Positions 1,849-21,366 of a stretch of 64,000 bases of DNA are shown here, piece by piece. Both the position numbers and the translations under genes were made by a program. The stretch spans positions 186,001-250,000 of the forward strand of contig NZ_CP032707.1 of NCBI RefSeq assembly GCF_003627995.1. The letters run 5' to 3'. The number at the start of each line of letters is the position of its first letter. Positions within the stretch are counted from its first letter, which is position 1. The notes beneath the pieces were generated by a model. The model did no database searches and was not told the DNA's origin. It saw only the letters and a program-made list of their open reading frames with translations. Source of the stretch: Brevundimonas naejangsanensis (GTDB lineage: Bacteria; Pseudomonadota; Alphaproteobacteria; Caulobacterales; Caulobacteraceae).

Positions 1849-1863
1849 GTCAATAGATTTGAC
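1849..1863. promoter_or_regulatory. GTCAA-N5-TTGAC operator, copy 1 (perfect)
   Basis: Perfect inverted repeat GTCAA-TAGAT-TTGAC. It lies in the divergent promoter region, about 100 bp from the enoyl-CoA hydratase start and 42 bp from the acyl-CoA synthetase start. The TTGAC arms also resemble -35 hexamers in both directions. It is one of eight matching sites in the island; the regulator is inferred to be one of the two MarR proteins. Confidence 0.75.
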
Positions 1864-1904
1864 AATCTTTCCCGCCCTCCGCGGCGGCAGGAGCACCCCT
1901 TTCG

Positions 1905-3449
1905 ATGAGAATTACGCAGGGCCTGGTGCGCGCCGTCGTCACGGCCGCGAACCGCACCGCCACCATCGATGGAGACCGTCGCCGCACCTGGCGCGAGGTC
2001 GGCGACCGCGTCGCCCGCCTGGCCGGCGGCCTGCGCGGCCAGGCCGGGTTGAAGGCCGGCGACCGGGTCGCCATCCTGGCCCACAACTGCGACCTCTATT
2101 TCGAGACCTATTTCGGCGTGCTGTGGGCCGGAGGCGTGCTGACGCCGATGAACACCCGCCTGGCCACGCCCGAGTTGGCCTTCCAACTGAAGGACGCCGG
2201 GGTCGAAACCCTGTGCTTCGGCGAGGAGTTCGCCGCCGTCGCCGAGCAGCTGCTGGCCGAGGGCGCGGTGCGGCGCCTGATCGCCATGGACGGCGCGGCA
2301 GACGAGGCGCGCCTGACCCACGAAGGCCTGATCCGGGCGTCGGAACCCGCCGAAGAACATCTGGCCGCCAATGACGATCTGGCGGGCATCTTCTACACCG
2401 GCGGCACCACGGGCCTGCCCAAGGGAGTGATGCTGAGCCACGGCAATCTGCACGCCATCGCGTCCAACCTGCTGATGACCATTCCGTTCGACGAGACGGG
2501 GGTCAATTTCCACGCCGCGCCCATGTTCCATCTGGCGGACATCGGCATCCTGTTCGCCACCATGACCGGCGCGACCCACGTCTTCCGCCGCAGCTACAAC
2601 GCCGAGACCATGCTGGAGGCGATCGCCGAGCACGGGGTGACGCACTGCTTCACCGTGCCCGCCGTCATCGACCGCATGGCCAAGTACGAGCGGCTGGACC
2701 AGCTCGATCTGTCGAAGCTGCAGATGCTGGGCTACGGCGGTTCGTCCCTGCCCGCCGCCACCCTGGCCCTGGCGCGCGAGAAGTTCCCGCACGTCGACTT
2801 CATCCAGGGCTTCGGCCAGACCGAGATGGCCTCCGTCACCGTGCTGACGCCCCAGGACCACCAGTGCGCCGACGACCACCCGCGTCTGCGCTCATGCGGC
2901 AAGGTCGCGCCGGGCTTCGAGATCCGCATCGTCGACGAGGCCGGAAACGAGGTCCCGCGCGGCCAGATCGGCGAGATCGTCGGGCGCGGCGACAACGTCA
3001 TGATGGGATATTGGAACCGCCCGGAAGAGACCGCCGACGTCATGCGCAACGGCTGGCTGCATACCCGCGACGCCGGGTGGATGGACGAGGACGGCTATAT
3101 CTACATCACCGACCGGCTGAAGGACATGATCGTGTCCGGGGCCGAGAACATCTATTCGATCGAGGTCGAGAACGCCCTGTCCTGGCACCCGGCGATCGAG
3201 GAAAGCGCCGTGATCGGCGTGCCCGATCCGGTCTGGGGCGAGCGGGTCCACGCCCATATCGTCTGCAAGGCGGGCGTGGAGCAGCCGAGCTTCGAGGAGT
3301 TGTCCGCCTTCTGCCGCCAGCGCATCGCCGGCTACAAGACGCCCAAGAGCGTCAGCTTCAGCGAGACCCGCCTGCCGCGCAGCGCCGCCGGCAAGATCCA
3401 GAAGGGCCCGGTCCGGGAGGCCGTGCTGAGGAATCTGAATCTGGCCTGA
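1905..3449 (+). CDS. Acyl-CoA synthetase (AMP-forming, class I adenylate-forming enzyme)
   Basis: A 514-residue ATP-dependent ligase that activates a carboxylic acid to its CoA thioester, the expected entry step of this catabolic island. Seen: the P-loop YTGGTTGLPKG near 163-173, the adenylate motif QGFGQTEM near 304, the hinge region YITDRLKDMI near 398-407, and the C-terminal catalytic lysine in GKIQKGPV near 497. The length is standard for the family. The ATG at 1905 follows GCAGGAG at a somewhat long spacing. The gene stands alone on the plus strand behind operator copy 1. The closest functional class could be medium-chain or aromatic acid ligases, or the LvaE ligase of levulinate catabolism given the LvaA/B-like genes nearby; substrate specificity cannot be read from the sequence. 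Confidence 0.92.
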   Translation: MRITQGLVRAVVTAANRTATIDGDRRRTWREVGDRVARLAGGLRGQAGLKAGDRVAILAHNCDLYFETYFGVLWAGGVLTPMNTRLATPELAFQLKDAGVETLCFGEEFAAVAEQLLAEGAVRRLIAMDGAADEARLTHEGLIRASEPAEEHLAANDDLAGIFYTGGTTGLPKGVMLSHGNLHAIASNLLMTIPFDETGVNFHAAPMFHLADIGILFATMTGATHVFRRSYNAETMLEAIAEHGVTHCFTVPAVIDRMAKYERLDQLDLSKLQMLGYGGSSLPAATLALAREKFPHVDFIQGFGQTEMASVTVLTPQDHQCADDHPRLRSCGKVAPGFEIRIVDEAGNEVPRGQIGEIVGRGDNVMMGYWNRPEETADVMRNGWLHTRDAGWMDEDGYIYITDRLKDMIVSGAENIYSIEVENALSWHPAIEESAVIGVPDPVWGERVHAHIVCKAGVEQPSFEELSAFCRQRIAGYKTPKSVSFSETRLPRSAAGKIQKGPVREAVLRNLNLA

Positions 3450-3454
3450 GAAAA

Positions 3455-3711: not shown

Positions 3712-5883
3712 TCAGGCCGCCAGCGGCTTCGGCGCCGGATAGAAGCGCTCGCCCTTCTCGGCCATGGTCTTCAGCAGGGCCGGCGGCGCGAACCGCTCGC
3801 CGTACTGCGCGGCCAGGGCCTCGCAGGCGGCGGTGAACTCGGCGACGCCGGTGCTGTCGATCAGGCTGATCGGGCCGCCGGTCCAGGGCGCGAAGCCCCA
3901 GCCCAGGATGGCGCCGACATCGGCGTCGCGGGCGGCGGTGACGACGTTCTCGTCCATGCAGCGCGCGGCTTCGACGGCCTGGCGGTATAGCAGACGCTGC
4001 TTCAGGTGCTCGATCAGCTCCGGCGACGACTGGCTGATCTTGACCGGATGCATTTCGGCCAGACCGGCCCACAGGCGCTTGGGCTCGCCCTGCGGATAGT
4101 CATAGACGCCCTTGCCGTTCTTGCGGCCCCAACGCTCCTGGCCGATCATGTCGATCAGGAATTTGTCGGTGTCGCCCGCCACAGGCGCCGGCAGGTTGAG
4201 GTCGATGCGACGCTGGCCCGCCACGCGGTCCACCAGATCGATGGCCACGTCGTCCAGCAGCTCCAGTGGGCCGCGCGGCATGCCGGTCATGCGGCCGACG
4301 TTGTCGATGATGGCGGGGGCGATGCCCTCGATCAGCATCTCCAGACCTTCGCGGATGTAGGTGTCGAACACCCGGCTGGTGAAGAAGCCCCGGCTGTCGT
4401 TGACGACGATCGGCACCTTCTTCAGCTGCTTGCAGTAGTCCAGCGCCTTGGCCAGCGTCTCCTGCGAGGTGGCCTTGCCGACGATGATCTCCACCAACTC
4501 CATCCGGTCAACCGGCGAGAAGAAGTGGATGCCGATGAAGTTGGCCGGACGCTCGGCCGCTTCCGACAGGCCGGTGATCGGGAGGGTCGAGGTGTTGGAG
4601 GCGAAGACGGCGTCCGGGCCGATCTGGGCCTCGGCGCGCTTGGTCACATCGGCCTTCAGGGCGCGGTCCTCGAACACGGCCTCGACCACCAGGTCGGCGC
4701 CCTTGATGGCGTCATAGTCGGTGGTGGCGGTGATGCGGCCGACCAGGTCGTCGGCGGCCTGCTGGCTCATCGCGCCCTTGGCCACGGCCTTGGCGACCAG
4801 ACCTTCCGAATAGGCCTTGCCCTTGTCGGCGCCGGCCTGGGCCACGTCGATCAGGACGGTGTCGATGCCGACCCGCGCCTGGGCGTAGGCGATGCCCGCC
4901 CCCATCATGCCAGCGCCCAGGACGGCGGCCTTCTTGACGGCATAGGTCGGCACGCCCGCCGGGCGGGCGCCGCCCTTGGCCAGGGCCTGCTTCGACAGGA
5001 AGAGCGAGCGGATCATGGCCCGCGCCTGGGGCGACTGCTGGGTGTCCAGGAACAGCCGCGCCTCGACGCGAAGCGCCGCGTCCATCGGCAGGTTGAAGCC
5101 CTCATAGACGCAGCGGGCGATGTTCTTCTGGGCCGGATAGTTGCCGTAGGTCTTCGACATGATCCGGGGCGGAACCATCATGAAGACAGGCGAACCGGCT
5201 TCCGAATAGGGGCCGTCCTTCATGACATAGCCCTTGCGGTCCCATGGCTGGACGCCCTCGCCGCCGGCCAGAATCCAGGCCTTGGCGGCGGCCAGGGCCT
5301 GACCCGGCTCGACCACTTCGTCGATGATGCCGATGGCCTTGGCCTTTTCAGCGTCGACCGGCGCGCCGGTCAGCATCAAGTCGAGCGCGGCCTGAACGCC
5401 CGCCAGACGCGGCACGCGCTGGGTGCCGCCGGCGCCCGGCAGCAGGCCGATGGTGACTTCCGGCAGGCCGACGCGGGCCTTGGTCGAGGCGACGCGATAG
5501 TGGGCCGCGAGCGCGAACTCGAAGCCGCCGCCCAGGGCGACGCCCTCGATGGCGGCGACCACCGGCTTGCCGACGGTTTCCAGGGCGCGCAGGGCCCAGG
5601 TCATGCGCGAGGTGGCGGGCAGAGCCGCTTCGCGCGCCGCGCCCGAGGCCTGCCCGCCGGCCGTCTCGCCCAGTTCGCCCAGGTCGGCGCCGGCGCAGAA
5701 GCCGTTCGCCTTGCCCGAGGCGAGGATGGCGCCCTTGATCGAGTCGTCGTCGCGGATCTTGGCGACGATGGCGTCGATGTCGGCCACGGCGCTGTCGGTG
5801 AAGGTGTTCATCGTGCGACCCGGCACGTCGAACAGGAAGGTGGCGATGCCGTCGGCGTCCACCGAAACGGTGAAGTTGTTCAT
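3712..5883 (-). CDS. FadB/FadJ-type bifunctional enoyl-CoA hydratase/3-hydroxyacyl-CoA dehydrogenase
   Basis: A 723-residue fusion carrying out the hydratase and NAD-dependent dehydrogenase steps of beta-oxidation. Seen: the crotonase domain at about 1-190 with GFCAGADLG near 61-69, [14 protein letters not shown] near 114-127 and the catalytic glutamate in [14 protein letters not shown] near 140-153. The Rossmann motif [12 protein letters not shown] begins near 322, and [12 protein letters not shown] carries the catalytic histidine of the dehydrogenase. The length matches the family. The start at 5883 begins directly with the conserved domain. The thiolase gene lies upstream on the same strand, separated by a palindromic repeat, giving a fadA-then-fadB order. 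No GTCAA-N5-TTGAC site was seen in front of this pair, so it may be a general rather than regulon-specific beta-oxidation unit. Confidence 0.95.
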
Positions 5884-5904
5884 TTGGGTTCAGTCCCTTT
5901 TCTT

Positions 5905-6003
5905 CGTCATCCCGGCCGTCGCAAAACGACAGAGCCGGGACCGCCGGAAACGCCGGCGCTTGCCGTGGTCCCGGATAGGCGCTGCGCGCCTTCCGGGATG
6001 ACG
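5905..6003. repeat. CGTCATCCCGG palindromic intergenic repeat
   Basis: CGTCATCCCGG at 5905-5915 is mirrored by CCGGGATGACG at 5993-6003, with further internal pairing between GCCGGGACC and GGTCCCGG. Long hairpins with this end sequence are typical of dispersed palindromic elements in alphaproteobacteria. It separates the thiolase and fadB-like genes. Confidence 0.7.
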
Positions 6004-6016
6004 GCGTGGGGTTGGA

Positions 6017-7219
<1,203 letters not shown>

Positions 7220-7240
7220 GGTCGTTTCCTCGTGCAGGGA

Positions 7241-8305
7241 TCAGGCGTCGCCAGGCGCGCGCGGTTGCGGCGCAGGCGTCAGGGAGAAGCGGGGGGCCGG
7301 GGCCGGCTGCACCACGCCGTTCAGGGTGATGAAGGCCTCGCGGACCTTGTTGTGCGGATGCTCGGGCGCCTCGGCAAAGGACAGGACCGGCGCGAAGCAG
7401 GCGTCCGTCCCCTCCATCAGTTCACGCCATTCGGCGCGGGTCTTGCGACGGAAGACGGCCGTCAGACGCTCGCGGCGCGCCTCGACGCCGTCCGGCGCGT
7501 TCTGGTCCTCGAACAGGGGATCGCCCGACAGGCCCACAGCCTGCAGCATCCGCGCGTAGAAGGGCGGCTCGATCGAGCCGATGGCGATGAACTCGCCATC
7601 GGCGGTCTCATAGGTGTCGTAATAGGGCGCGCCGGTGTCCAGGTAGTTGGCGCCCCGCTCGTCGCTCCAGATTCCCTGGCCGCGAAAGCCCCAGATCATC
7701 CCCATCAGCAGGGAAGCGCCATCGGTCATGGCGCAGTCGATGACCTGGCCCTTGCCGGTCGCGCGGGCCGAGAGGATGCCCGCCAGCATGCCGAAGGCCA
7801 GCATCATCCCGCCGCCGCCGAAGTCCCCCACCATGTTGATCGGCGGGGTCGGCTTCTCACCCTTGCGGCCGAAAGCGTTCAGGGCGCCGGTGATGGCGAT
7901 GTAGTTGATGTCGTGGCCGGCGGCGTGGGCCAGCGGCCCTTCCTGGCCCCAGCCGGTCATCCGGCCGTAAACGAGGCGCGGATTGTCGGCCAGCAGCGCC
8001 TCGGGCCCCAGGCCCAACCGCTCCATGACCCCAGGACGATAGCCCTCGATCAGGCCGTCGGCGTCGCGGATCAGGGCGCGGGCGGCCGCCCTGCCCTCCT
8101 CCGACTTCAGGTCCAGTTCGACCCGCGACCGCGACCGCGCCAGCACGTCCGAGGGATCGATGCGGACGCCGGGACGGGCGATGCGGATCACCTCCGCCCC
8201 GTGGTCGGCCAGCATCATGCCGGCGAAGGGGCCGGGCCCGATGCCCTCCATCTCGATGATCTTCAGCCCGGCCAAGGCGCCGCCGGAAACGATGCCTGCG
8301 CTCAT
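7241..8305 (-). CDS. CaiB/BaiF family protein, probable alpha-methylacyl-CoA racemase
   Basis: A 354-residue family III CoA-transferase fold protein. Alpha-methylacyl-CoA racemases epimerise 2-methyl-branched acyl-CoA thioesters so that acyl-CoA dehydrogenase can act. Seen: GHDINY with His131 and GDFGGGGM with Asp161, which match the catalytic His/Asp pair of known racemases, and the N-terminal [20 protein letters not shown]. These favour racemase over a true CoA-transferase. The presence of the gene implies a methyl-branched intermediate, as in sterol side chains or isoprenoid acids; that is inference. The ATG at 8305 overlaps the stop of an 11-codon ORF that has a better ribosome site. Operator copy 2 lies about 100 bp upstream. 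Confidence 0.87.
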
Positions 8306-8402: not shown

Positions 8403-8417
8403 GTCAAGAAATTTGAC
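8403..8417. promoter_or_regulatory. GTCAA-N5-TTGAC operator, copy 2 (perfect)
   Basis: Perfect inverted repeat GTCAA-GAAAT-TTGAC. It abuts the stop codon of the upstream MarR gene and lies about 100 bp before the racemase start, so it probably controls a racemase-thiolase-fadB transcript. Confidence 0.75.
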
Positions 8418-8870
8418 TTAAGCGATTTCCATTCTTCGCTCGGACAGGGTCTCCGAACCGCCTAGGAAATTGCGCAGCCCCTGGCGCAGGGCCTCCAGAT
8501 TCTCGCCCCCCACGGCCTCTTCCAGCTCGCTTTCCAGTTCCCGCAACACCTTCTGGGCGTCGTCGCGAATGGCCTGGGACTCGGGGGCGAAACGGACGAT
8601 GCGGGCGCGCTTGTCATCCGGGTCGGGGGCCAGCTCCAGCAGCTTGCGATCGACCATCTCGGTCAGGAACTGGCTCATGGCCTGGCGCGAGACGCCCAGG
8701 TTCTCGGCCATGCGGGCGGCACGGGTCTCACCGTTGGCGACGTTGACCAGGATCAGCGACTGCGACCGGCCCAGCCGCCCCCAACCGCGCGTGTCGAGAC
8801 GCGACTGCAGCTGTTCGTCGAACCAGTAGAGGGTCCGCACCAGGTCGAGCATGAGCAGGGGGCGATTCAT
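8418..8870 (-). CDS. MarR family transcriptional regulator (paralogue 1)
   Basis: A 150-residue winged-helix regulator; MarR proteins bind palindromes as dimers and release them when bound by a pathway ligand. Seen: the recognition region MAENLGVSRQAMSQFLTEMV followed by the wing DPDDKRARIVRF. The start at 8870 (MNRPLLML) is chosen over the upstream ATG at 8951, because the longer form would place the start codon inside operator copy 3 and add 27 non-conserved residues. The chosen N-terminus also aligns with the second MarR gene at 14703: both read WFDE-x-LQ, then GW, then R-x-x-S. Its promoter carries operator copy 3, suggesting autoregulation. Confidence 0.9.
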   Translation of the reverse strand: MNRPLLMLDLVRTLYWFDEQLQSRLDTRGWGRLGRSQSLILVNVANGETRAARMAENLGVSRQAMSQFLTEMVDRKLLELAPDPDDKRARIVRFAPESQAIRDDAQKVLRELESELEEAVGGENLEALRQGLRNFLGGSETLSERRMEIA

Positions 8871-8934: not shown

Positions 8935-8949
8935 GTCAACTTACTTGAC
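8935..8949. promoter_or_regulatory. GTCAA-N5-TTGAC operator, copy 3 (perfect)
   Basis: Perfect inverted repeat GTCAA-CTTAC-TTGAC in the divergent region between MarR paralogue 1 (65 bp to its start) and the flavin monooxygenase (52 bp to its start). Confidence 0.75.
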
Positions 8950-9000
8950 ATTCATATTCTTCCGAAGCGAACCTGACCGTCCCAAGAGGGAGGATTCAAC

Positions 9001-10242
9001 ATGACGGGCGAAAAGCTCGCGGACCGACGCATTCCTGTCGGAGACGATTTTCTGGCCCCCGAGGCCGTGGCGGCCCTGACCCCGGCCGACTTGGTCGCCC
9101 GGGTCACGGCGCTGAAGCCCATGATCGCCGCCGCCTCCGCCGAGGCCGAACGCCTGCGCCGCCCGGTGGACGAGGTGTGGAGCGCCCTGCGCGCCACCGG
9201 CTATTTCTACATCTATGTGCCGCGCAAGTTCGGCGGGCTGGAGTTCGATCCCCAGACCTATATCGACGCCACCCTGGCCATCTGCGAGGCCTGCCCCTCG
9301 ACCGGCTGGACGGCCAGTTTCGCGGCCGAGCACAACTGGCTGATCGCCCAGTATCCCGAACAGACCCAGGCCGAGGTCTGGGGCCGCACCCCCTATGTCA
9401 TCGCCCCCAGCGTAGCCGCCCCTCCGGGCAAGGCGGTGCGCATGGACGGCGGCTTCCGTCTCAGCGGCCGCTGGAAGTTCGGCACCGTCGTCATGCACGC
9501 CGACTGGGCCATGCTCAACGCCATGGAGGACATGGGCGAGGGCAAGCCGCCGGTCGTGCGCATGATGCTGGTCCGCGCCGAGGACGTGAAGGTGCTGGAC
9601 ACCTGGTTCATGAGCGGCATGGCCGCCACCGGCTCCAACGACATCCTCGCCGAGGACCTGTTCGTGCCCGAGGCCTATACGTTCGAGGTCGGGCCGGTGC
9701 GCACCGGACGCGGCAACGGCGGCAAGGTGCATGACAATCCCCTCTATGCGGCGCCCATGCTGCCGCAGCTGTGCGTCACGGCGGCCCTGCCCTCGGTCGG
9801 CGCGGCCAAGGCGGCGGTCGAGCTGGCGCGCAAGCGGCTGACGGTCCACACCAAGATGGGCGGGCAGTCGACCCAGGTGGACAAGCCCGCCGCCCAGATG
9901 CGCCTGGCCCGCGCCGACCTGATGGTGCGCTCGGCCGAACTGTCGATCCGCCAGGCGGCGGACGAGAACCTGACGCTCTCGGCCCTGAGCGACGAGGAGC
10001 AGTTGCCCCATCGCCTGCGTCTGCGCGCCCAGATCGCCTATGCCGTCAGCCAATGCCTGGAGGCCGTTCGGACCTGCTGCGAGGCGTCCGGCTCGGGCAT
10101 CTACGCCATGGACAATCCGATGCAGCGCATCCTGCGCGACATCGAGGTCATGGCCAGCCACATCGTCTATGACATGGACGTGTCCACCGAGCTTCACGGC
10201 CGATCGATGGTCGGCCTGGCGCCGAACTCCCTGCTGACCTAG
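9001..10242 (+). CDS. Flavin-dependent monooxygenase, HsaA/HpaB-like (acyl-CoA dehydrogenase fold)
   Basis: A 413-residue protein with the acyl-CoA dehydrogenase fold, but with features of group D flavin monooxygenases, the oxygenase part of two-component hydroxylases such as HsaA. Seen: CPSTGWTASFAAEHNW near 98-113, SGRWKFGT near 155-162, and GSNDILAEDLFVPEAYT near 211-227. These are the family's flavin and substrate segments, and the usual dehydrogenase catalytic-base region is absent. Such enzymes need reduced flavin from a partner; the likely reductase is encoded at 21443, about 11 kb away, behind the same type of operator. A GAGGGAGGA ribosome site precedes the ATG at 9001. An unusual acyl-CoA dehydrogenase remains the alternative. 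Confidence 0.82.
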   Translation: MTGEKLADRRIPVGDDFLAPEAVAALTPADLVARVTALKPMIAAASAEAERLRRPVDEVWSALRATGYFYIYVPRKFGGLEFDPQTYIDATLAICEACPSTGWTASFAAEHNWLIAQYPEQTQAEVWGRTPYVIAPSVAAPPGKAVRMDGGFRLSGRWKFGTVVMHADWAMLNAMEDMGEGKPPVVRMMLVRAEDVKVLDTWFMSGMAATGSNDILAEDLFVPEAYTFEVGPVRTGRGNGGKVHDNPLYAAPMLPQLCVTAALPSVGAAKAAVELARKRLTVHTKMGGQSTQVDKPAAQMRLARADLMVRSAELSIRQAADENLTLSALSDEEQLPHRLRLRAQIAYAVSQCLEAVRTCCEASGSGIYAMDNPMQRILRDIEVMASHIVYDMDVSTELHGRSMVGLAPNSLLT

Positions 10243-11983: not shown

Positions 11984-12342
11984 GCCTCGACCCCCTGCGA
12001 CAGTTCGTGGCGATAGCGCGGCTGGTCGATCGCCAGCATGGCCAGGGCGGCGCGGCGCAGATGGTCGAACACGGCCGGATCCTCGGCGCTGACCGTCCCC
12101 TTGCGCAGGGCCTCGGCCAGGGCGGCGTTCAGCGTGGCGTAGTCGCCGTCGCAGCCCAGGATGGCTTGCATCCGCATGACGGCCGCGGCCTCGGCGGCGG
12201 GCCATTGGGCGAGTTCGCGTGACACCATGCCCAGGGCATTGGCCGCCACCCTGCGGTGGAAGCCCTCGACAGGGGAGGAAGCGTCCTCCAGCCAGGCGGT
12301 CGTCGCCTGCAGCAGTTCGTCCCGGCTCGGTCCCTCGATCAT
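11980..12342 (-). CDS. Small conserved protein, LvaB-like partner of the kinase (DUF6285-type)
   Basis: A 120-residue soluble, alpha-helical, alanine-rich protein with no catalytic motif that I recognise. It sits between the APH-like kinase and the HMG-CoA-lyase-like gene, with four-base overlaps on both sides. In levulinate catabolism a similarly small protein, LvaB, is required together with the APH-fold kinase LvaA to phosphorylate 4-hydroxyacyl-CoA. The size, the strict neighbourhood and the overlap make an LvaB-like role likely. The DUF6285 assignment is from memory of the family's size and context, not a search. The start at 12342 is set by the ATGA overlap; the longer open frame covers the kinase gene. 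Confidence 0.72.
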   Translation of the reverse strand: MIEGPSRDELLQATTAWLEDASSPVEGFHRRVAANALGMVSRELAQWPAAEAAAVMRMQAILGCDGDYATLNAALAEALRKGTVSAEDPAVFDHLRRAALAMLAIDQPRYRHELSQGVEA

Positions 12343-13401: not shown

Positions 13402-13416
13402 GTCAAATAGATTGAC
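13402..13416. promoter_or_regulatory. GTCAA-N5-TTGAC operator, copy 4 (perfect)
   Basis: Perfect inverted repeat GTCAA-ATAGA-TTGAC between the divergent kinase operon (32 bp to its start) and the acyl-CoA dehydrogenase (59 bp to its start). Confidence 0.75.
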
Positions 13417-13474: not shown

Positions 13475-14626
13475 ATGAGCGCCCATTCCGGCCCTTCTCC
13501 CTACACTCAGGAAGACGTCGACCTGTTCCGCGAGGGTTTGTCCAAATTCCTCGACGCCGAGTGCCCGCCGGAGAAGATCGAGGCCTGGAGCCGCAACAAG
13601 ATCGTCGAGCGCGAGATGTGGACCAAGGGCGCCGAGTTCGGGCTACTGGGCCTGTCGGTCCCCGAGGAATACGGCGGCATGGGCGCCGACTTCCGCCATG
13701 AGCGCGTGGTCATCGAGGAGTTCGGCGCGCGCGGCATGGAGGGCTGGGGCGTGCCGCTGCACAACATGATCGTGGCCCCCTACCTGATCGCCTTCGGCAC
13801 CGAAGAGCAGAAGCAGAAATGGCTGCCCGGCGTGGTCTCGGGCGAGATCGTCCTGGCCATCGCCATGACCGAGCCGGGCACGGGCTCAGACCTGCAGGGC
13901 ATCCGCACCCGCGCCCGGCTGGAGGGCGACGAATGGGTGCTGAACGGCCAGAAGACCTTCATCTCCAACGGCCAAACGGCGGACCTGATCCTGGTGGTGT
14001 GCCGCACCTCGGACAACGGCTCGCGCGGCATCTCTCTGATCGCGGTGGAAGGCGACCGCGCGGGCTTCGTGCGCGGCCGCAACCTCGACAAGATGGGCCG
14101 CGCCGCCCAGGACACCTCCGAGCTGTTCTTCGAGGACGTGCGTGTTCCCGCGTCCAACCTCGTCGGCGGGATCGAGGGCAAGGGCTTCGGCCAACTGATG
14201 CAGATGCTGCCCCAGGAACGCCTCGGCATCGCCGCCATGGGCCTGGCCATCCTGGAGCGGGCGCTGAAGCTGACGGTCGACTACACGCGCGAGCGCCAGG
14301 CCTTCGGCAAGACGTTGATGGAGTTCCAGAACACCCAATTCACCCTGGCCGACATCAAGGCCAAGGCGGTGATCGCCCGCAGCTTCATCGACAGCTGCAC
14401 CGAAAAACTGATCCGCGGCGAACTGGACGCGGCGACCGCCTCCATCGCCAAGCTGTGGATCACGGAGACCGAACTGGAAGGCGTGAACAAATGCCTGCAG
14501 CTGTTCGGCGGCTACGGCTATATGAACGAATATCCGATCGCTCAGCTGTATAAGGACGCGCGGATCGACACCATCCACGGCGGCACGTCCGAAGTGATGA
14601 AGATGCTGATCGCCCGCACGCTCTGA
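13475..14626 (+). CDS. Acyl-CoA dehydrogenase (1)
   Basis: A 383-residue FAD-dependent dehydrogenase that introduces an alpha-beta double bond into acyl-CoA. Seen: AMTEPGTGSDLQGI near 130-143, the FAD/substrate segment WVLNGQKTFISNG near 155-167, RQAFGKTLMEFQ near 275-286, the C-terminal LFGGYGYMNEYP near 345-356 and the terminal IHGGTSEVMKMLIARTL. Length and motifs are standard. The position of the catalytic glutamate (the ERLG region or the C-terminal NEYP region) is not settled by reading alone. It is controlled from operator copy 4 and followed by a MarR gene on the same strand. Confidence 0.94.
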   Translation: MSAHSGPSPYTQEDVDLFREGLSKFLDAECPPEKIEAWSRNKIVEREMWTKGAEFGLLGLSVPEEYGGMGADFRHERVVIEEFGARGMEGWGVPLHNMIVAPYLIAFGTEEQKQKWLPGVVSGEIVLAIAMTEPGTGSDLQGIRTRARLEGDEWVLNGQKTFISNGQTADLILVVCRTSDNGSRGISLIAVEGDRAGFVRGRNLDKMGRAAQDTSELFFEDVRVPASNLVGGIEGKGFGQLMQMLPQERLGIAAMGLAILERALKLTVDYTRERQAFGKTLMEFQNTQFTLADIKAKAVIARSFIDSCTEKLIRGELDAATASIAKLWITETELEGVNKCLQLFGGYGYMNEYPIAQLYKDARIDTIHGGTSEVMKMLIARTL

Positions 14627-14702: not shown

Positions 14703-15197
14703 ATGATCATGAATTCCGACTATCTGATCGTGCCGCTGCTGGCGGGATTTGAATGGTTCGACGAAAGCCTGCAGATGAGCCTGCGCGAGGCTGGCTGGCC
14801 GCATCTGACCCGGCCCGAGTCGATGGTCATGATGCACGTCCAGATGAACGTCGTGCGCCCCGCCGACATCGCCCGCAGCCTGCGCCTGACGCGCCAGGCG
14901 GTGCACTCCACCATCAACTCCCTGGTCGAGCGCGGCGTGTTCGAGATGGCGGACGATCCCACGGACGGCCGCATCCGCATCGTCCAGCTGACCCCCATGG
15001 GCAGGGCCATGCGTCAGGACGCCCAGAGGATCGTCGCCGAGCTGACCGAAGAGCTTGGCCGTCGCATCGGCGCCAAGCGGGTCAAGGCCCTGCGTGAGGC
15101 CTTCGGCTCCGACTGGGGCGCCCCCATTCTGTGCAGCCTGGGCGAGCCCGGCGGGCGCGCGGCGGATTTTCGGCAGACCGCGAACAAAAATCAGTAA
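14703..15197 (+). CDS. MarR family transcriptional regulator (paralogue 2)
   Basis: A 164-residue winged-helix protein paralogous to the MarR gene at 8418-8870; both share the N-terminal pattern WFDE-x-LQ, GW and the helix-turn-helix spacing. Seen: the recognition helix SLRLTRQAVHSTINSLVERG and the wing DPTDGRIRIVQL. A GGGAG ribosome site lies 6 nt before the ATG at 14703. It lies 76 bp after the acyl-CoA dehydrogenase, and operator copy 5 overlaps its stop codon. Two related regulators in one island with one operator class suggest either heterodimers or regulators answering to different ligands. Confidence 0.92.
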   Translation: MIMNSDYLIVPLLAGFEWFDESLQMSLREAGWPHLTRPESMVMMHVQMNVVRPADIARSLRLTRQAVHSTINSLVERGVFEMADDPTDGRIRIVQLTPMGRAMRQDAQRIVAELTEELGRRIGAKRVKALREAFGSDWGAPILCSLGEPGGRAADFRQTANKNQ

Positions 15198-15208
15198 AGT
15201 AACTTGAC
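15194..15208. promoter_or_regulatory. GTCAA-N5-TTGAC operator, copy 5 (one mismatch)
   Basis: GTAAA-GTAAC-TTGAC, overlapping the MarR stop codon and upstream of the TonB-dependent receptor. It is identical over 15 bp to copy 8 at 21352-21366. Confidence 0.65.
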
Positions 15209-15228: not shown

Positions 15229-15243
15229 GTCTAGTTTCTTGAC
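15229..15243. promoter_or_regulatory. GTCAA-N5-TTGAC operator, copy 6 (one mismatch)
   Basis: GTCTA-GTTTC-TTGAC, 35 bp centre to centre from copy 5. This is the only tandem arrangement of the operator seen in the island, in front of the receptor gene. Confidence 0.55.
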
Positions 15244-15285: not shown

Positions 15286-15387
15286 ATGGTCCGTTCGCGG
15301 TCTCAACGCCTCCTCGTAGCAAACACAGCTCTGGCCTCCGGGCCGGGGCCGCATGGGGAGGAATACGCATGCGTTGTCGTTATGTGA
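15286..15387 (+). other. Possible 33-codon leader ORF overlapping the receptor start
   Basis: An ATG at 15286 follows a GGGAGGGAGGG ribosome site. It opens a 33-codon frame that ends at TGA 15385-15387, overlapping the first 19 bases of the receptor gene in another frame. It could couple or modulate receptor translation, or be chance; the encoded peptide has no recognisable features. Confidence 0.3.
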
Positions 15388-17546
15388 TGCTGCTCGCGTC
15401 GAGCAGCCTGGTTCTCAGCACCGCCGCCATGGCCCAGACGGCGCCTGAAGGGCCCGCAGCCCAGGCCGATACGACCACGGTCGCCGATATCCTGGTCACC
15501 GCGCGCAAGCGCACCGAGCGCCTGCAGGACGTACCGATCTCGGTCAACGTCACCAGCGGCGAGGAACTGGCCAGCCAGGACGTGCGCAACCTGGAGGCCC
15601 TGTCGGGCTCGGTGCCGAACCTGCACATCCAGGCCACGCCGGGCAACAACGCCATCTACATCCGGGGCATCGGCTCCTCGCCAGGCAACCTGGCCTTCGA
15701 GCAGTCGGTCGGCCTGTTCGTCGACGGCGCCTACGCCGGGCGCGGCCGCCAGTTCGCCGCCCCTTTCCTGGACGTGGCCAGCGTCGAGGTGCTGCGCGGC
15801 GCCCAGGGCGCCCTGTTCGGCAAGAACACCGCCGCCGGGGCCATCAACATCACCTCGAACGGCCCGCGCGCCACGCGTGAACTGGCGACCACCATCACCG
15901 GCACGGTCGAGGGCGACAACGGCTATGAGATCAGCCACATCGTCTCGGGTCCGATCACCGACAAGCTGCTGGTCCGCCTGGCCGGCAAGTACAGCGACAA
16001 CGAAGGCTGGGTCGAGAACACCACCACCGGCGACCGTAATCCGGGCCGCGAGGACCTGATCGGCCGCGCCGTCGTCGACTATCTGGCCAGCGACACCCTG
16101 TCCTTCCGTCTCAAGCTGGAAGGCGCGCGCCAGGAGCTGACTGGCCAGCCCATGAGCAGCGTCCCCGTCGGCGGCTCCAAGTCCTTCACCCGCACGACCA
16201 CGGCCGGCGTGCCGGACTATGACGACACCAACAGCTTCAACGGCGTGCTGACGATCAACAAGGATTTCGCCAACGGCGTCACCCTGACCGCGATCAGCGC
16301 CTATTCGGCCTTCGGCTACGACAAGCAGATCGACAGCGACTTCGTCGCCGCCCCCCTGCTGCGCACCATCTTCCAGGAAGACTTCAGCCAGATCTCGCAG
16401 GAAGTGCGCCTGACCTCGTCCAACGAGGGGCCGCTGACCTGGATCGTGGGCGCATATGCCCACAAGAACGAGATCGACATGCATCAGGAGTCCGCCATCC
16501 TGATGGGCGCCCTCAACGGGACCAGCAAGCGCGATTTCAACCAGACGAACGAGAGCTATTCGATCTACGGTCAGGCTACCTATGCCTTCAACGACCACTG
16601 GAAACTGACCGCCGGCCTGCGCCAGACCTGGGAGGACAAGGCCGCCGACCAGACGCGCCAGACCTCGGGCGTCCTGCCGCCGTCGTGGGTGAACACCCCG
16701 CTCAGCGGCCAGCGCCGCGAGAGCCAGCTCGATCCCTCGGTCCAAGTCCAGTACGTCGTCGACCGCGACATGATGTTCTACGCCTCCTACGCCAAGGGCT
16801 CGAAGGCGGGCGGCTTCGTCGGCGCCCAGTCGACCGGCGGCCAGGACGCCTTCGAGTTCGAGGGCGAAACCTCCAACTCGATCGAGGTCGGGACCAAGCT
16901 GACCCTGCTGGACGGCCGCGCGACCCTGAACCTGGCGGCCTACACCTCCAAGTTCGAGGACCTGCAGGTGTCGGGTTTCAACGCCGCGACCAACGCCTTC
17001 ATCACCACCAACGCCGCCAGCGCCAAGAGCCAGGGCGTCGAGGCCGAGGGCACGCTGCGCATCAACCCGTCGGTCACCCTGTCGGGCTCGGTCGCCTACA
17101 ATGACGCCCGGTACGATTCCTACCCGACGGCGCCCTGCGTCTATAAGAACGGCGTCGCTCCCGCGGCTAACTGCGTCGAGGACATCGGCGGCGTGCGCCT
17201 GCCGCGCGCGCCCAAATGGTCGGGTGCCCTGACGCTGAACGTCGACCATCCGCTGGAGAACGGCATGCGCCTGCTGGCCGACGCCACGGTGCGCGGCCGC
17301 AGCGGGACCTATCTGGAAGAGAACCTGAACCCGCGATCCTATCAGGAAGGCTTCTCGAAGGTGGACCTGCGCCTGGGCGTGGCCTCGCCCGACGACCGCT
17401 GGACCCTGGCCCTGATCGGCCGGAACCTGACCAACGAATGGACCGCCTCACACTCGTTCGGCACGCCCTTCCTGGCCGCCTCGTCGCAGACCTATGTGGT
17501 CGATCCTGGCCGGGTCGTCTCGATCCAGCTGGGCCTGCGCTACTGA
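15369..17546 (+). CDS. TonB-dependent outer-membrane receptor
   Basis: A 725-residue receptor for energy-dependent uptake across the outer membrane. Seen: a signal peptide with a probable cut after AMAQ near 23, a TonB-box-like VADILVTARKR near 38-48, the plug domain (DVPISVNV, VPNLHIQATPGNNAIYIRGIG) and a beta-barrel ending in an aromatic residue (GLRY). A GGGGAGGAA ribosome site precedes the ATG at 15369. Two operator copies lie upstream and a clear terminator follows, so it is a single-gene unit of the regulon. It probably imports the island's substrate, whose identity is unknown. Confidence 0.93.
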   Translation: MRCRYVMLLASSSLVLSTAAMAQTAPEGPAAQADTTTVADILVTARKRTERLQDVPISVNVTSGEELASQDVRNLEALSGSVPNLHIQATPGNNAIYIRGIGSSPGNLAFEQSVGLFVDGAYAGRGRQFAAPFLDVASVEVLRGAQGALFGKNTAAGAINITSNGPRATRELATTITGTVEGDNGYEISHIVSGPITDKLLVRLAGKYSDNEGWVENTTTGDRNPGREDLIGRAVVDYLASDTLSFRLKLEGARQELTGQPMSSVPVGGSKSFTRTTTAGVPDYDDTNSFNGVLTINKDFANGVTLTAISAYSAFGYDKQIDSDFVAAPLLRTIFQEDFSQISQEVRLTSSNEGPLTWIVGAYAHKNEIDMHQESAILMGALNGTSKRDFNQTNESYSIYGQATYAFNDHWKLTAGLRQTWEDKAADQTRQTSGVLPPSWVNTPLSGQRRESQLDPSVQVQYVVDRDMMFYASYAKGSKAGGFVGAQSTGGQDAFEFEGETSNSIEVGTKLTLLDGRATLNLAAYTSKFEDLQVSGFNAATNAFITTNAASAKSQGVEAEGTLRINPSVTLSGSVAYNDARYDSYPTAPCVYKNGVAPAANCVEDIGGVRLPRAPKWSGALTLNVDHPLENGMRLLADATVRGRSGTYLEENLNPRSYQEGFSKVDLRLGVASPDDRWTLALIGRNLTNEWTASHSFGTPFLAASSQTYVVDPGRVVSIQLGLRY

Positions 17547-17697: not shown

Positions 17698-18864
17698 TCA
17701 GAAGGTGGCTTTCATCCACTCCACGAAGACGGCCGCGCCTTCGGCGGCCTTGTCGGGCTGGCCGGAGTAGTAGTGGTTGGCGCCCTTGATGACCGCGTGG
17801 GTCTGCGGCGCGTTCACGGCCGCCTCCATCAGGCGGGCCGCGTGGCTGGGGGTGCAGGCGTCGTCGGCGCTGTTCTCGATGACCAGCATGGGCACGCTGA
17901 TCCGCGCCGCGCACTTCAGCCCGTCGGCGTTTGAGTCGTCGTAGGACCACTGCGACAACCATGAACGCAGCGTCGAGAAGCGCGCCAGGCCGACCGGGCC
18001 GTCGTTGACCACTTCGGGGTCGCCGAGCATGCAGTAGTTGGGACGGCGGTCGCTGGGCTCCAGCGTCTCGTCGATGAAGCGCGGGTCGGCCATCGTCCCC
18101 TGCACCACGAAGCCGCGTTCGTGGTTGTGCAACCCTCGCGCCTTCAGCTCGGCCAGCTGCGCCTTCACCCAGGCGGTGATGCGTCGGTTGCGGGCGATCT
18201 GGGCCTGGCGATAACGGGCGATGTATTCGGCGCTGTAGGGCGCCTGGTTCGGATTGGCGGGGTCGTAGATGTTCAGTTCGGGATCGCGCTCGAACGGACG
18301 GCTCTCGTCCGTGACCGAGGGGTCGATCCACTCGGTCAGGGTCAGGTTGCGCGACAGGTGCGCGGCCAGAAGAGCGATGCCGTCGGCCGGGATCAGGTTG
18401 GCCTTGGTCAGGTCGATCGGATCGCCCGCCGGGGTCTGGGTCACGGTCGGGTTCTCGGCCTCGGCCTGATAGAAGAGCGACAGGGCGCCGCCGCCGGACC
18501 AGCCGCCGAGAATGACCTTCTTGTAGCCCAGCCGCTCCTTGGCGTCGCGGACGCAGGCGCCCAGGTCCAGGGCGCACTTCTCCATGATCAGGGCGTTGTC
18601 GATGCCCCGATAGCGGCTGTTGCAATAGATGACGTGAACGCCCTGCTTGGCCAGCGCCGCCGGCAAGGGCAGCCAGGCGCCGCCGCCGATCGGGTGCATC
18701 ATGACGACCACGGTGTCGGACGGCGTGTCCGGCTTCAGCAGGTGCGCCTCCAGCGCCACCGCGCCCTCGGCCCCGCCATAGGTGTCCTTGAACGTCGCCT
18801 GTTCCTGAAAGACGATCAGATAGGGGATGCGCTGGTATTTCTTCTTCACGGGCGCCTCGCTCAT
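17698..18864 (-). CDS. Alpha/beta hydrolase
   Basis: A 388-residue alpha/beta-hydrolase fold protein. Seen: MMHPIGGGAW near 54-63 (oxyanion region), the nucleophile elbow GGWSGGGA with serine near 121, and a late GANHYYSG with the probable catalytic histidine. At 388 residues it is longer than typical meta-cleavage C-C hydrolases of about 285 residues, with an inserted cap of about 150 residues. Its ATG overlaps the stop of the VOC gene by four bases, so the two are translated together. Pairing with a VOC protein suggests a ring-cleavage and hydrolysis couple, but an esterase or peptidase activity on another intermediate is also possible. Confidence 0.85.
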   Translation of the reverse strand: MSEAPVKKKYQRIPYLIVFQEQATFKDTYGGAEGAVALEAHLLKPDTPSDTVVVMMHPIGGGAWLPLPAALAKQGVHVIYCNSRYRGIDNALIMEKCALDLGACVRDAKERLGYKKVILGGWSGGGALSLFYQAEAENPTVTQTPAGDPIDLTKANLIPADGIALLAAHLSRNLTLTEWIDPSVTDESRPFERDPELNIYDPANPNQAPYSAEYIARYRQAQIARNRRITAWVKAQLAELKARGLHNHERGFVVQGTMADPRFIDETLEPSDRRPNYCMLGDPEVVNDGPVGLARFSTLRSWLSQWSYDDSNADGLKCAARISVPMLVIENSADDACTPSHAARLMEAAVNAPQTHAVIKGANHYYSGQPDKAAEGAAVFVEWMKATF

Positions 18865-19451
18865 CCCTTCAGCTCCGACTGGGGCTTGCCGCGGCGGTCC
18901 AGGGCCTCGGCGCCGAACTTGGCTTCCTTCTCCGCGCGGGTCTGAGCCGACCAGGCCTTCAGCGTCTGCGGCAGGGCGGCGCCCTCCTCGCCCAGGATGC
19001 GGTCGTGGTCGGCGGTGCGGGTGGTGATCTCCACCTGGATGCCGTTCGGGTCGTACATATAGACCGAGCGCACGAAGTGATGCTCGACCGGGCCCAGGCA
19101 GCTGACGCCGTGGGCGCGGATGCGCTGCTGCATCTCCAGCATGTGCGCCTCGTCGCGCGCCTGGATGGCGATGTGCATGTCGAAGCTGTCCTTGCGCTGG
19201 AACCAGGCCGGATCGGCAGTCGAGGGCGCGTCGAAGAAGGCGACGAAATTGCCGTCCCCCATCTCGAAGAAGATATGCATGTAGGGCGTCGGCTCATGGG
19301 TGCCCGGCACCTCGTCCAGCACGATCCCGGCCGAGGCCTTCAGCCCCAGAACGTCCTCATAGAACCAGCGCGTCTGCTCGGCGTCGCGGCAGCGGAACGC
19401 CGCGTGATGCAGCGAGCGCAGCCCGCTCTCGGTGGTGACCGGCGTGGCCAT
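18861..19451 (-). CDS. VOC superfamily protein (glyoxalase/extradiol dioxygenase fold)
   Basis: A 196-residue vicinal-oxygen-chelate protein. Metal ligands are visible at the expected places: His in LHHAAFRC, His in FDMHIAIQ and Glu in GIQVEITTR. Family members include extradiol dioxygenases, glyoxalases and epimerases, and this single two-module protein is shorter than HsaC/BphC-type dioxygenases of about 300 residues. The ATG at 19451 is preferred over 19460 because AGGAAGG abuts the upstream ATG but lies 9 nt from this one. The C-terminal 50 residues form a charged extension outside the fold. The gene diverges from acyl-CoA dehydrogenase 2 across operator copy 7. Confidence 0.85.
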   Translation of the reverse strand: MATPVTTESGLRSLHHAAFRCRDAEQTRWFYEDVLGLKASAGIVLDEVPGTHEPTPYMHIFFEMGDGNFVAFFDAPSTADPAWFQRKDSFDMHIAIQARDEAHMLEMQQRIRAHGVSCLGPVEHHFVRSVYMYDPNGIQVEITTRTADHDRILGEEGAALPQTLKAWSAQTRAEKEAKFGAEALDRRGKPQSELKG

Positions 19452-19511
19452 GGGACTCATCCTTCCTGTCGTTTCCTTATGAAATCGACTCCATACGCGC
19501 CGCCGATGTTT

Positions 19512-19526
19512 GTCAAATTGCTTTAC
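19512..19526. promoter_or_regulatory. GTCAA-N5-TTGAC operator, copy 7 (one mismatch)
   Basis: GTCAA-ATTGC-TTTAC between the divergent VOC-hydrolase operon (61 bp to its start) and acyl-CoA dehydrogenase 2 (52 bp to its start). Confidence 0.65.
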
Positions 19527-19577: not shown

Positions 19578-20867
19578 ATGGACTTCGAACTGCCCGCCGA
19601 AATCACCGACTACCTGGCGGAGCTGGACGCCTTCATCGAGGCCGAGATCGCTCCCCTGCAGGCGCAGGACGACAACGAGCGCTTCTTCGACCACCGCCGC
19701 GAATGGGCGCGCACCGACTTCGACAACGGCGGCCTGCCCCGCCACGAGTGGGAGGCCCTGCTCGGCGAGGCCAAGCGCCGCGCCGACGCGGCCGGCCACC
19801 TCCGCTTCGCCCTGCCCGCCGAGTTCGGCGGCAAGGACGGCTCGAACCTGGCCATGGCCGTGATCCGCGAGCATTTCGCCGCCAAGGGCCTGGGCCTGCA
19901 CAACGACCTGCAGAACGAGCACTCAATCGTCGCCAACTATCCGCAGGTGCTGATGTTCCGCGACTTCGGCTCCCAGGCGCAGAAGGACGAGTTCATCGCC
20001 GGCATGCTGGACGGGACCCGTTCGGTCTGCTTCGGCCTGACCGAGCCCGAGCACGGTTCGGACGCGACGCACATGGACACCACGGCCGTGCGCGAGACGC
20101 GCGACGGCGTCGAGGGTTGGCGCATCGACGGCGAGAAGATGTGGACCACGGGGATGCACGTGGCGACCCACGTCATGGTCTTCGCCCGCACCTCGGGCGA
20201 GGCAGGCGACGCGCGGGGCATCAGCTGCTTCCTGGTCCCGGCCGAGGCGGAGGGCGTCAAGGTCGAGGAGTATCTCTGGACCTTCAACATGCCGACCGAC
20301 CACCCGCGCGTCAGCTTCACCGGCGTCTGGGTGCCCGACAGCGCCCTGTTCGGCCCGGCCGGCGGCGGGTTGGAGCTGGCCCAGCATTTCGTCCACGAGA
20401 ACCGCATCCGCCAGGCCGCCTCGTCCCTGGGCGCCGCGGATTACTGCATCCGTGAGGCGGTGAAGTACGCGCGCGAGCGCAAGCCCTTCGGCAAGCCGCT
20501 GGCCGTAAACCAGGCCATCCAATTCCCCCTCGTCGAACTGGCCACCCAGGTCGAGATGCTGCGCCTGCTGATCCGCAAGACAGCCTGGGAGATGGACCGC
20601 ATGTCCAAGCCCGAGGTGGCGACCACACTCTCGGACCGGGTGTCCATGTGCAACTACTGGGCGAACCGCCTGGTCTGCCAGGCGGCGGACACGGCCATGC
20701 AGGTGCACGGCGGCATGGGCTATTCGCGCCACAAGCCGTTCGAGCACATCTATCGCCACCACCGCCGCTATCGCATCACCGAGGGCGCCGAAGAGATCCA
20801 GATGCGCAAGATCGCCGCCTGGATGTTCGGCTTCGCCGGGCCGAACAAGATCGCGAGAAAGGCGTGA
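19578..20867 (+). CDS. Acyl-CoA dehydrogenase (2), ACAD11/LvaC-like
   Basis: A 429-residue dehydrogenase that differs from the copy at 13475 in having a long N-terminal segment (QDDNERFFDHRREW near 34-47) and the stretch LGLHNDLQNEHSIV near 102-115. Both recall the ACAD10/11 subfamily. Seen: GLTEPEHGSDATH near 152-164, EKMWTTGMHVATH near 183-195, RKPFGKPLAVNQAIQ near 300-314, HGGMGYSRHKPFEHIYRHH and a terminal RITEGAEEIQ. Enzymes of this class act after an APH-like kinase to remove phosphate from 4-phosphoacyl-CoA, and such a kinase is encoded at 12339. AAGGAGGAG precedes the ATG. The MaoC gene follows with a four-base overlap. Confidence 0.92.
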   Translation: MDFELPAEITDYLAELDAFIEAEIAPLQAQDDNERFFDHRREWARTDFDNGGLPRHEWEALLGEAKRRADAAGHLRFALPAEFGGKDGSNLAMAVIREHFAAKGLGLHNDLQNEHSIVANYPQVLMFRDFGSQAQKDEFIAGMLDGTRSVCFGLTEPEHGSDATHMDTTAVRETRDGVEGWRIDGEKMWTTGMHVATHVMVFARTSGEAGDARGISCFLVPAEAEGVKVEEYLWTFNMPTDHPRVSFTGVWVPDSALFGPAGGGLELAQHFVHENRIRQAASSLGAADYCIREAVKYARERKPFGKPLAVNQAIQFPLVELATQVEMLRLLIRKTAWEMDRMSKPEVATTLSDRVSMCNYWANRLVCQAADTAMQVHGGMGYSRHKPFEHIYRHHRRYRITEGAEEIQMRKIAAWMFGFAGPNKIARKA

Positions 20868-21349
20868 GCGGCGGCGCGCGCGTCGTCGCTTTCGCCGACC
20901 TGCCCGGCCTGGCCGGGCGGGACCTCGGCGTCTCCGACTGGCTGGCACTGGACCAGGGCCGCATCGACCGCTTCGCCGCGGCCACCGACGACCGCCAATG
21001 GATCCATGTCGATGTCGAGAGGGCGCAGCGCGAGATCGGCGGGCCGATCGCCCATGGTTTCCTGACCCTGTCGCTGCTGCCGCGCCTTCAGGACGACCTG
21101 TTGCGCATCGACGGCGCGGACCGGGTGCTGAACGTGGGCGTCAACAAGGTGCGCTTCATCGCCCCCGCGCCCAGCGGCGTCCGAATCCGCCTGCGCCAGA
21201 CGGTGGTCGCCGTGGAAGCCCGCGCGGGCGGCTGGCAGATTGTCAGCGACTGCGTGATCGAGGGCGAAGGCCAGGCCAGGCCGCTGTGCGCCGCCCAGAG
21301 CGTCATGCTGGCCCTGCCGCCCTCCGACGCCGAAAGTCACGCCGCTTGA
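20864..21349 (+). CDS. MaoC-like (R)-specific enoyl-CoA hydratase
   Basis: A 161-residue hot-dog fold hydratase adding water to a 2-enoyl-CoA. Seen: the catalytic Asp/His region QWIHVDVERA near 39-48 (the exact catalytic positions are not certain) and the hydratase-2 motif GPIAHGFLTLSLLP near 54-67. The GTG at 20864 is chosen because GTGA overlaps the dehydrogenase stop and the MaoC fold begins soon after; the longer open frame upstream is the shadow of the dehydrogenase. It forms a two-gene operon with acyl-CoA dehydrogenase 2, giving consecutive dehydrogenation and hydration. Confidence 0.9.
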   Translation: MSGGARVVAFADLPGLAGRDLGVSDWLALDQGRIDRFAAATDDRQWIHVDVERAQREIGGPIAHGFLTLSLLPRLQDDLLRIDGADRVLNVGVNKVRFIAPAPSGVRIRLRQTVVAVEARAGGWQIVSDCVIEGEGQARPLCAAQSVMLALPPSDAESHAA

Positions 21350-21351
21350 TA

Positions 21352-21366
21352 GTAAAGTAACTTGAC
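21352..21366. promoter_or_regulatory. GTCAA-N5-TTGAC operator, copy 8 (one mismatch)
   Basis: GTAAA-GTAAC-TTGAC, two bases after the MaoC stop and 77 bp before the flavin reductase. It is identical to copy 5. Confidence 0.65.

Follow-up and report, generated by a model that had tools for sequence, protein, structure and literature searches.

Does a short palindrome that recurs between the genes of a catabolic island mark the operators of one regulon and, if so, which protein would bind it? The question is raised by GTCAA-N5-TTGAC, found repeatedly in a window of 64,000 bases from Brevundimonas naejangsanensis (contig NZ_CP032707.1, positions 186001-250000 of the 3.0-Mb single-contig genome; "the window" below is this whole stretch, and positions refer to it unless marked as genome positions). 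We conclude that the sites are very probably the operators of an island-wide, autoregulated repressor regulon of a distinct MarR subfamily, which has two paralogues here, MarR1 and MarR2. Computation supports the sites themselves, their placement at promoters, the conservation they show and their joint occurrence with this MarR subfamily across genomes.

Inventory and placement of the sites

A mismatch scan of the window found perfect copies at 1849..1863, 8403..8417, 8935..8949 and 13402..13416 and copies with one mismatch at 15194..15208, 15229..15243, 19512..19526 and 21352..21366 (none is assigned a strand), exactly where the first-pass annotation had placed its four perfect and four one-mismatch sites; beyond those eight, the 64,000 bases held no site with 0-1 mismatch. 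The first site, GTCAATAGATTTGAC, has the same letters in two other Brevundimonas islands and lies between divergent genes for an ECH crotonase and an acyl-CoA ligase. Site 8403 lies between the MarR1 stop and the start of a CaiB1-FadA-FadB unit, site 8935 between the divergent MarR1 and HsaA-like monooxygenase genes, and site 13402 between the divergent APH-DUF6285-HMGL-SDR and ACAD1-MarR2 units. Two sites, 15194 (GTAAAGTAACTTGAC) and 15229 (GTCTAGTTTCTTGAC), stand upstream of the TonB receptor gene TonB2, site 19512 separates the divergent VOC/alpha-beta-hydrolase and ACAD2-MaoC units, and site 21352, upstream of a flavin reductase gene, again reads GTAAAGTAACTTGAC, so that the fifth and eighth sites are indeed identical, as had been noticed. 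The earlier expectation of 0.06 perfect sites at uniform base composition agrees with 64,000/4^10. When up to two mismatches were allowed, the window gave 31 matches against a shuffle mean of 11.4 (maximum 24, 100 shuffles).

The tally of eight is complete for the window at 0-1 mismatch, but it missed four further conserved island sites upstream, at genome positions 176664, 176685, 183621 and 183690 (window -9336, -9315, -2379 and -2310), as well as a strong site at genome position 314803. The four upstream sites, two with one and two with two mismatches here, sit in two promoter gaps (176664 with 176685; 183621 with 183690), and paired sites occur at three promoter regions: TonB1, TonB2 and FadD2/CaiB2.

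Genes were called by a rough codon-usage caller trained on 13 window genes, the starts being approximate. By this call all eight window sites are intergenic, which bears out the claim that every site lies in a promoter region; site 15194 overlaps the stop codon of MarR2, and site 8935 is intergenic only with the MarR1 start at 8870 (150 aa), which homologues support, and not with that at 8951. Four of the eight (1849, 8935, 13402 and 19512) are centred between divergent genes, where the first-pass annotation had spoken of several. Across the island a site is present in all five divergent gaps and in none of the six convergent ones; the same-strand gaps bearing a site are four, of 93, 112, 189 and 237 bp, and those without one measure 133, 89, 76, 66, 43 bp and less. 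On our reading, with operon boundaries taken from gap length, each transcription unit from TonB1 through the flavin reductase starts with a site. There are sites on both sides of MarR1 and one ahead of the ACAD1-MarR2 unit, and these we count as support for autoregulation.

Frequency and context of the pattern

Genome-wide, the pattern with at most one mismatch has 64 forward matches against 72 for a reversed control pattern, so that the loose pattern is by itself no evidence; this count was set aside as a test, being uninformative with most matches outside the island coding (45/53). Whether the motif is equally frequent inside genes and in unrelated promoters thus has a divided answer, since by loose count it is, but context separates the two groups. 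Ten of the 11 island matches are intergenic, and the same ten have at least three A/T in the spacer, whereas the 53 matches outside the island include 8 intergenic ones (possibly too high a number, as a few lack a nearby called gene on one or both sides), 12 that are A/T-rich and 5 that are both. As a control we used 780 palindromes with the arm composition of GTCAA and spacers of 0-12. In the 2,660 bases of island intergenic DNA, GTCAA-N5 has 10 sites with at most one mismatch and is the best of the 780; the runner-up has 5 and is a frame-shifted view of the same sites.

Conservation, extended motif and probable promoter overlap

The Brevundimonas genomes G165 and G102 carry the island in opposite orientation and have counterparts for all 12 island sites. 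Each of the 15 site columns is identical across the three islands in 10-12 of the 12 triplets, and beyond 7 nt from the site the figure is 3-10 (all but one column in 3-9). The extended consensus is about 19 bp long, TTGTCAAnTwAnTTGACAA. With a position weight matrix (PWM) built from the 12 own sites, left-out sites score 12.8-30.6, and in a 144-kb stretch the top 11 hits are all island sites, the twelfth being a palindrome at genome position 158413 (19.1); the weakest island site, 176664, ranks after it (18.3 in training, 12.8 left out).

In the 15 promoter-facing flanks, conservation across the three genomes drops with distance from the operator and peaks again 19-24 nt from its edge (12.3/15, vs 7.9 at 4-16 nt and 8.1 at 27-45 nt). 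This peak falls at the -10 position if the operator's TTGAC(A) is a -35 box with a 17-bp spacer. In the window, both arms read GTCAA at the sites up to 13402, and from 15194 on one arm is GTAAA or GTCTA; the three genomes agree in this split. We do not claim two operator subtypes, one per MarR, since perfect GTCAA sites occur at MarR2-like loci of other genera (L081 and L084).

The two MarR proteins

MarR1 (8418..8870, minus strand, 150 aa) could be extended to a longer open reading frame (ORF) reaching 8951, with homology beginning at 8870; MarR2 (14703..15197, plus strand) lies downstream of ACAD1. Both score above the gathering threshold of Pfam MarR_2 (for MarR1 the longer ORF was scanned, and alignment supports the assignment), and they share 37% identity over 132 residues. 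The AlphaFold2 model of MarR2 (mean predicted local distance difference test score 91) matches MarR-family structures, the best Foldseek hit being the ST1710-DNA complex. A genome search up to E 0.1 found no members of this subfamily besides these two island proteins, apart from two marginal hits elsewhere (E 0.003 and E 0.05). None of the named MarR regulators in NCBIfam (Saro_0803, HpaR, BilQ, AdcR, FabT, OhrR) matched above its curated cut-off, the best scores being 25 bits against a cut-off of 175 for MarR1 and 34 against 200 for MarR2. Relatives of the two come from Caulobacterales, Sphingomonadales and some gammaproteobacterial metagenome-assembled genomes (MAGs) and have a WFDE-LQ helix in common; no relative found has a described function. 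In three alignments the predicted recognition helix begins with an invariant RQ pair, which is consistent with one shared operator for both paralogues. Both are present in all seven genomes of the genus that have either (E 1e-10; 131 genomes).

The palindrome at MarR loci of other genera

The first-pass annotation had tentatively assigned the sites to the island's own MarR proteins; this now has comparative support from conservation, from 33 loci in other genera and from co-occurrence, and binding is predicted from sequence. A collection scan with a MarR2-type alignment provided the best 80 of 86 relatives' loci, reduced to 34 representatives at MarR identity below 80%. Thirty-three of these, none from Brevundimonas, form the outside set; they were picked only for encoding a MarR2-like protein and come from Phenylobacterium, Hyphomonas, Sphingopyxis, Novosphingobium and others. 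They contain 26 perfect copies of GTCAA-N5-TTGAC, where the 780 matched palindromes average 0.33 and the runner-up has 9. Within 500 bp of the MarR gene, 22 copies with at most one mismatch compare with an average of 0.52 and a runner-up at 7. The 26 perfect copies are intergenic without exception, and 18 of the 33 loci have one. If one mismatch is allowed and the site must be intergenic and A/T-rich, 25/33 loci have such a site, and 15/33 have one within 500 bp of the MarR gene. Among outside-locus gaps of 40-700 bp, A/T-rich sites occupy 21/84 divergent, 13/109 same-strand and 0/35 convergent ones. In an unnormalised ranking of palindromes over the 34 representatives, GTCAA-N5 is 1st of 673 within 500 bp (9/34 loci) and 19th of 4,582 within 10 kb, where the eight best listed have G+C-only arms. 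Loci of relatives closer to MarR1 have an intergenic site with at most one mismatch in 5/7 cases (two of the seven come from one genome, and one also has a MarR2-like fragment).

Co-occurrence points the same way. Among the 131 genus genomes, the extended pattern WTGTMARNTWANYTKACAW with at most two mismatches occurs 10-13 times in each of the seven with the MarR pair (G000, 12; G215, 10; G217, 11; G165, 13; G102, 12; G245, 11; G284, 12) and 0-4 times in each of the other 124; common descent of the island contributes to this. A family-level test is more independent of descent. Of 199 family genomes, 18 encode a MarR relative (E up to 1e-10), and the exact consensus GTCAANTWANTTGAC occurs in nine, eight of them among those 18 (hypergeometric P 7e-9). 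Outside the genus, five of the six exact-consensus genomes encode such a MarR, against a background of 15/159 (P 2e-5). In the eight genomes with both, every GTCAANTWANTTGAC hit is on the MarR-bearing contig, which is trivial for two single-contig genomes.

A distal site and other outlying palindromes

The site at genome position 314803, 107 kb away and outside the training set, has an island-like PWM score of 29.5. It lies 64 bp ahead of the ATG, read by eye, of a gene for a beta-lactamase-fold serine hydrolase (PF00144; genome 314882-316216) with a signal-like N-terminus. Orthologues (E 1e-60) occur in six of the 131 genus genomes, three of which have the MarR pair (P 0.0018). In G215, also B. 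naejangsanensis, the orthologue is inside the island, between the TonB receptor and alpha/beta hydrolase genes, where it could be read from the TonB2 promoter; the gene has thus changed place, being outside the island here and within it in G215. In G282, G247 and G264, which have the hydrolase and no MarRs, the site is absent at the hydrolase gene. Since these three orthologues lack it and those of G215 and G165 have no clear one, the distal site is known from one genome only.

Palindromes at genome positions 158413 (PWM 19.1) and 159346 (16.6) were not counted and could belong to another regulator; a TonB receptor gene, a Coq4-like gene and a possible TetR-like gene (by eye; zero Pfam hits) are their neighbours, and they are perhaps a separate regulon. 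A PWM hit at 2213953 (16.0) and a pattern hit at 2133087 were likewise not counted as members.

Proposed regulation and its alternatives

We propose that a MarR dimer would bind the 19-bp palindrome and that the outward TTGAC(A) arm probably serves also as the -35 box; with the arm doubling in this way, a bound repressor would block RNA polymerase, and one site between divergent genes would silence both directions. The pathway substrate or, more likely, one of its coenzyme A (CoA) thioesters would release the MarR proteins, and all units would then be switched on, those for uptake (two TonB receptors and an MFS transporter), for CoA activation, for oxidation of a ring or side chain and for beta-oxidation, as well as the two MarR genes. 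Binding by the MarR proteins, repression rather than activation, overlap with the -35 box, a CoA-thioester inducer and a single site for both paralogues are what we infer. It is possible, though doubtful as a whole, that the two paralogues kept together share the operator by competition or as heterodimers, that two pathway intermediates gate the island and the hydrolase, and that an undescribed subfamily with its own 19-bp code is widespread in catabolic islands of Caulobacterales and Sphingomonadales.

Several observations weigh against the regulon as we read it. The loose pattern with 0-1 mismatch shows no genome-wide enrichment, the extended pattern and PWM are derived from these same sites, and tests within the genus lose force because the Brevundimonas islands share descent. 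The block at 19-24 nt fits TATAAT weakly (0.27 of letters; neighbouring offsets reach 0.28), and because of that weak match we infer the promoters rather than read them directly. Among the outside loci, 8/33 have no intergenic A/T-rich site of at most one mismatch, and 18/33 are without such a site in the 500 bp next to the MarR gene; 4 of the 20 family loci L071-L090 are without an intergenic site of at most one mismatch, and when the unnormalised ranking takes in all 80 loci with their redundancy, GTCAA-N5 comes only 7th of 1,057 within 500 bp. As for co-occurrence, 51 of the 124 genus genomes without the MarRs have 1-4 extended matches, 10 of the 18 family MarR genomes are without the exact consensus, and G101, one of the nine consensus genomes, has no close MarR homologue: its single exact site is near a recombinase-like gene (by eye), and its best MarR relative (E 7e-9) is on another contig. 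The distal hydrolase is missing (E 1e-60) from four of the seven MarR genomes; in G165 and G215, both with the island, no clear site accompanies the orthologue itself.

The sites could have arisen by chance or from A/T-rich intergenic composition, given that intergenic DNA is A/T-richer here and that the loose pattern is common genome-wide; composition-matched palindromes, however, reach at most 5 against 10 in island intergenic DNA and at most 9 against 26 in the outside loci, and the footprint is conserved across three islands, which leaves this explanation with next to no probability. Very improbable, too, is that the sites are merely strong -35 boxes (TTGAC) that look palindromic through divergent promoters. 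In favour of this, the TTGAC(A) arm equals the -35 consensus and the conserved block at -10 spacing would suit a promoter, but both arms are kept at 8403, 15194, 15229, 21352 and 176685, which face one direction only by gene orientation, the N5 spacing is fixed, and extended matches number 0-4 in the 124 MarR-less genomes vs 10-13 in the seven.

MarR genes frequently adjoin catabolic genes, and the palindrome might be bound by some other regulator, such as a TetR-type or global factor encoded elsewhere, the MarR genes being mere neighbouring targets; the exact site in G101 without a close MarR homologue would fit this. We nevertheless consider it quite improbable, since loci chosen for a MarR2-like protein in several genera are enriched for exactly this palindrome, and eight of the nine consensus-bearing family genomes encode such a MarR. 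Neighbouring genes moreover vary, the commonest other best-hit homologue, an acyl-CoA ligase, occurring in 21/34 loci, so that MarR is the most constant partner (the loci, however, were selected for MarR). That the MarRs are activators, or that one represses and one activates, is unlikely: paired sites at TonB1, TonB2 and FadD2/CaiB2 allow two occupancy states, and the two paralogues are kept jointly in all seven genus genomes with either (E 1e-10), but the conserved block at -10 distance points to an operator arm over the -35 box, a typical position for repression, with CouR and DesR (see below) as precedents.

Gene content and distribution of the island

The island starts 9.3 kb upstream of the window and spans genome positions 176766-209679 (window -9234 to 23679), and the first site lies 33 kb from the far end of the sulfatase gene. 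Upstream of the window the order is a TonB receptor (176766), a second HsaA-like monooxygenase, a SnoaL-like protein, an MFS transporter, a second acyl-CoA ligase, a CoA-transferase III and a LeuD-like protein, followed by a LeuC-like gene identified by eye; the island encodes two ligases and two CoA-transferases. Site 1849 is flanked by ECH (989-1747, minus), beyond which the LeuC- and LeuD-like genes follow upstream of the window, and the acyl-CoA ligase (1905-3449, plus). The FadB-like, FadA-like thiolase and CoA-transferase III genes (3712..8305, minus) are treated as one unit behind 8403. The HsaA-like flavin-dependent monooxygenase HsaA1 (9001..10242, plus; start 9001 or 9067), predicted to be regulated, scores 241 bits with the NCBIfam HsaA model, under its cut-off of 450, and has XiaF and HsaA as relatives in the PDB. 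Behind 13402 we treat as one unit the APH, DUF6285, HMG-CoA-lyase-like and SDR genes (10329..13370, minus), and on the other side the acyl-CoA dehydrogenase gene ACAD1 (13475..14626, plus) is probably co-transcribed with MarR2. TonB2, a TonB-dependent receptor per Pfam (15387..17546, plus; start 15369 or 15387), is predicted to be regulated. Behind 19512 stand two units, one of the alpha/beta hydrolase and VOC (glyoxalase/dioxygenase superfamily) genes (17698..19460, minus), the other of the acyl-CoA dehydrogenase ACAD2 and MaoC dehydratase genes (19578..21349, plus). Site 21352 is followed by the flavin reductase (21443-21934, plus) and sulfatase (21988-23679, plus) genes, the latter of uncertain regulon membership. 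The VOC protein is close to PDB 9u42, on which no paper was found in the open-access literature, and the alpha/beta hydrolase has zero PDB relatives at E 0.001.

The LeuD/LeuC-like aconitase-type genes beside the crotonase gene (genome 184967-186978; window -1033 to 978) are odd company for an aromatic or lipid pathway; homologues stand near MarR relatives in 6/34 representative loci, including Sphingopyxis, Hyphomonas and Henriciella. At the downstream edge, a large minus-strand ORF (23711-25768) has a TonB-type-receptor-like translation, zero Pfam hits and zero operator sites. APH-type phosphotransferase genes (window 12339-13370; L224:4552-5556) recur beside the operator across genera, accompanied by genes for VOC proteins and TonB receptors. 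One example is G006, a genome recorded as Phenylobacterium, where perfect sites stand beside genes of all three types, which are also present in the window; the arrangement in G160 is the same by eye. This recurrence suggests a shared substrate class.

The island is patchy, and the presence of the MarR pair in just 7/131 genus genomes points to horizontal transfer or frequent loss. One contig of a Bordetella MAG, L165, bears the Brevundimonas island at about 87-96% protein identity for most genes (DUF6285, 78%) and is probably mis-binned.

Comparison with known systems and significance

Catabolic loci in which a MarR repressor acts through several operators are already known. CouR of Rhodococcus jostii RHA1 represses p-hydroxycinnamate catabolism with p-coumaroyl-CoA as the effector that releases it and, per the excerpts of its account (PMC4737184), resembles the present case in its MarR fold and in a 5-bp-spaced inverted repeat with a TTGAC arm. 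The CouR repeat overlaps a TTGAcA -35 box, as is predicted for the operator here; a single CouR operator serves divergent promoters, and its locus has several operators, including one at the promoter of CouR itself, an arrangement that the sites of the island would match. The CouR arms, cATTGA/TCAATg in the same excerpts, differ from GTCAA/TTGAC, and here there are two paralogues, about 13 sites and a different pathway; similarity to CouR itself is weak (profile E 4e-8 to CouR structures, among many MarRs). DesR of Sphingobium sp. SYK-6, a repressor of vanillate and syringate genes, likewise has 15-bp inverted repeats upstream of several targets and its own gene, one of them over a -35 box; in the excerpts compared (PMC6888825), it differs in its repeats, such as GTTTGTGTCACATAC, its free-acid effectors and its three repeat-bearing targets. 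In Bacillus subtilis, GbsR and OpcR are two MarR-type paralogues (34% identity) that co-control one promoter, but, in the parts of the source seen (PMC7396694), their operators are unlike each other, one acts as a roadblock, and they serve osmoprotection, not catabolism. PheR, an IclR-type regulator in the excerpt seen, was set aside as a comparator. Within the subfamily itself, the palindrome of the island occurs near many of the relatives' MarR genes.

No description of this operator or MarR subfamily was found among the matches listed from the open-access full-text literature, and, as far as such listings show, the subfamily, the operator, the co-kept paralogue pair and the regulon map are new. 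We regard the regulon finding as well supported, useful and not very surprising. The operator and the MarR subfamily together give a search key with which undescribed degradation islands could be found and delimited in many alphaproteobacteria. Distant members are also to be expected on the regulon model, the secreted hydrolase being an example. Given a known inducer, the locus would be usable as a compact paired repressor-operator system, whether as an object of study or in biosensors.

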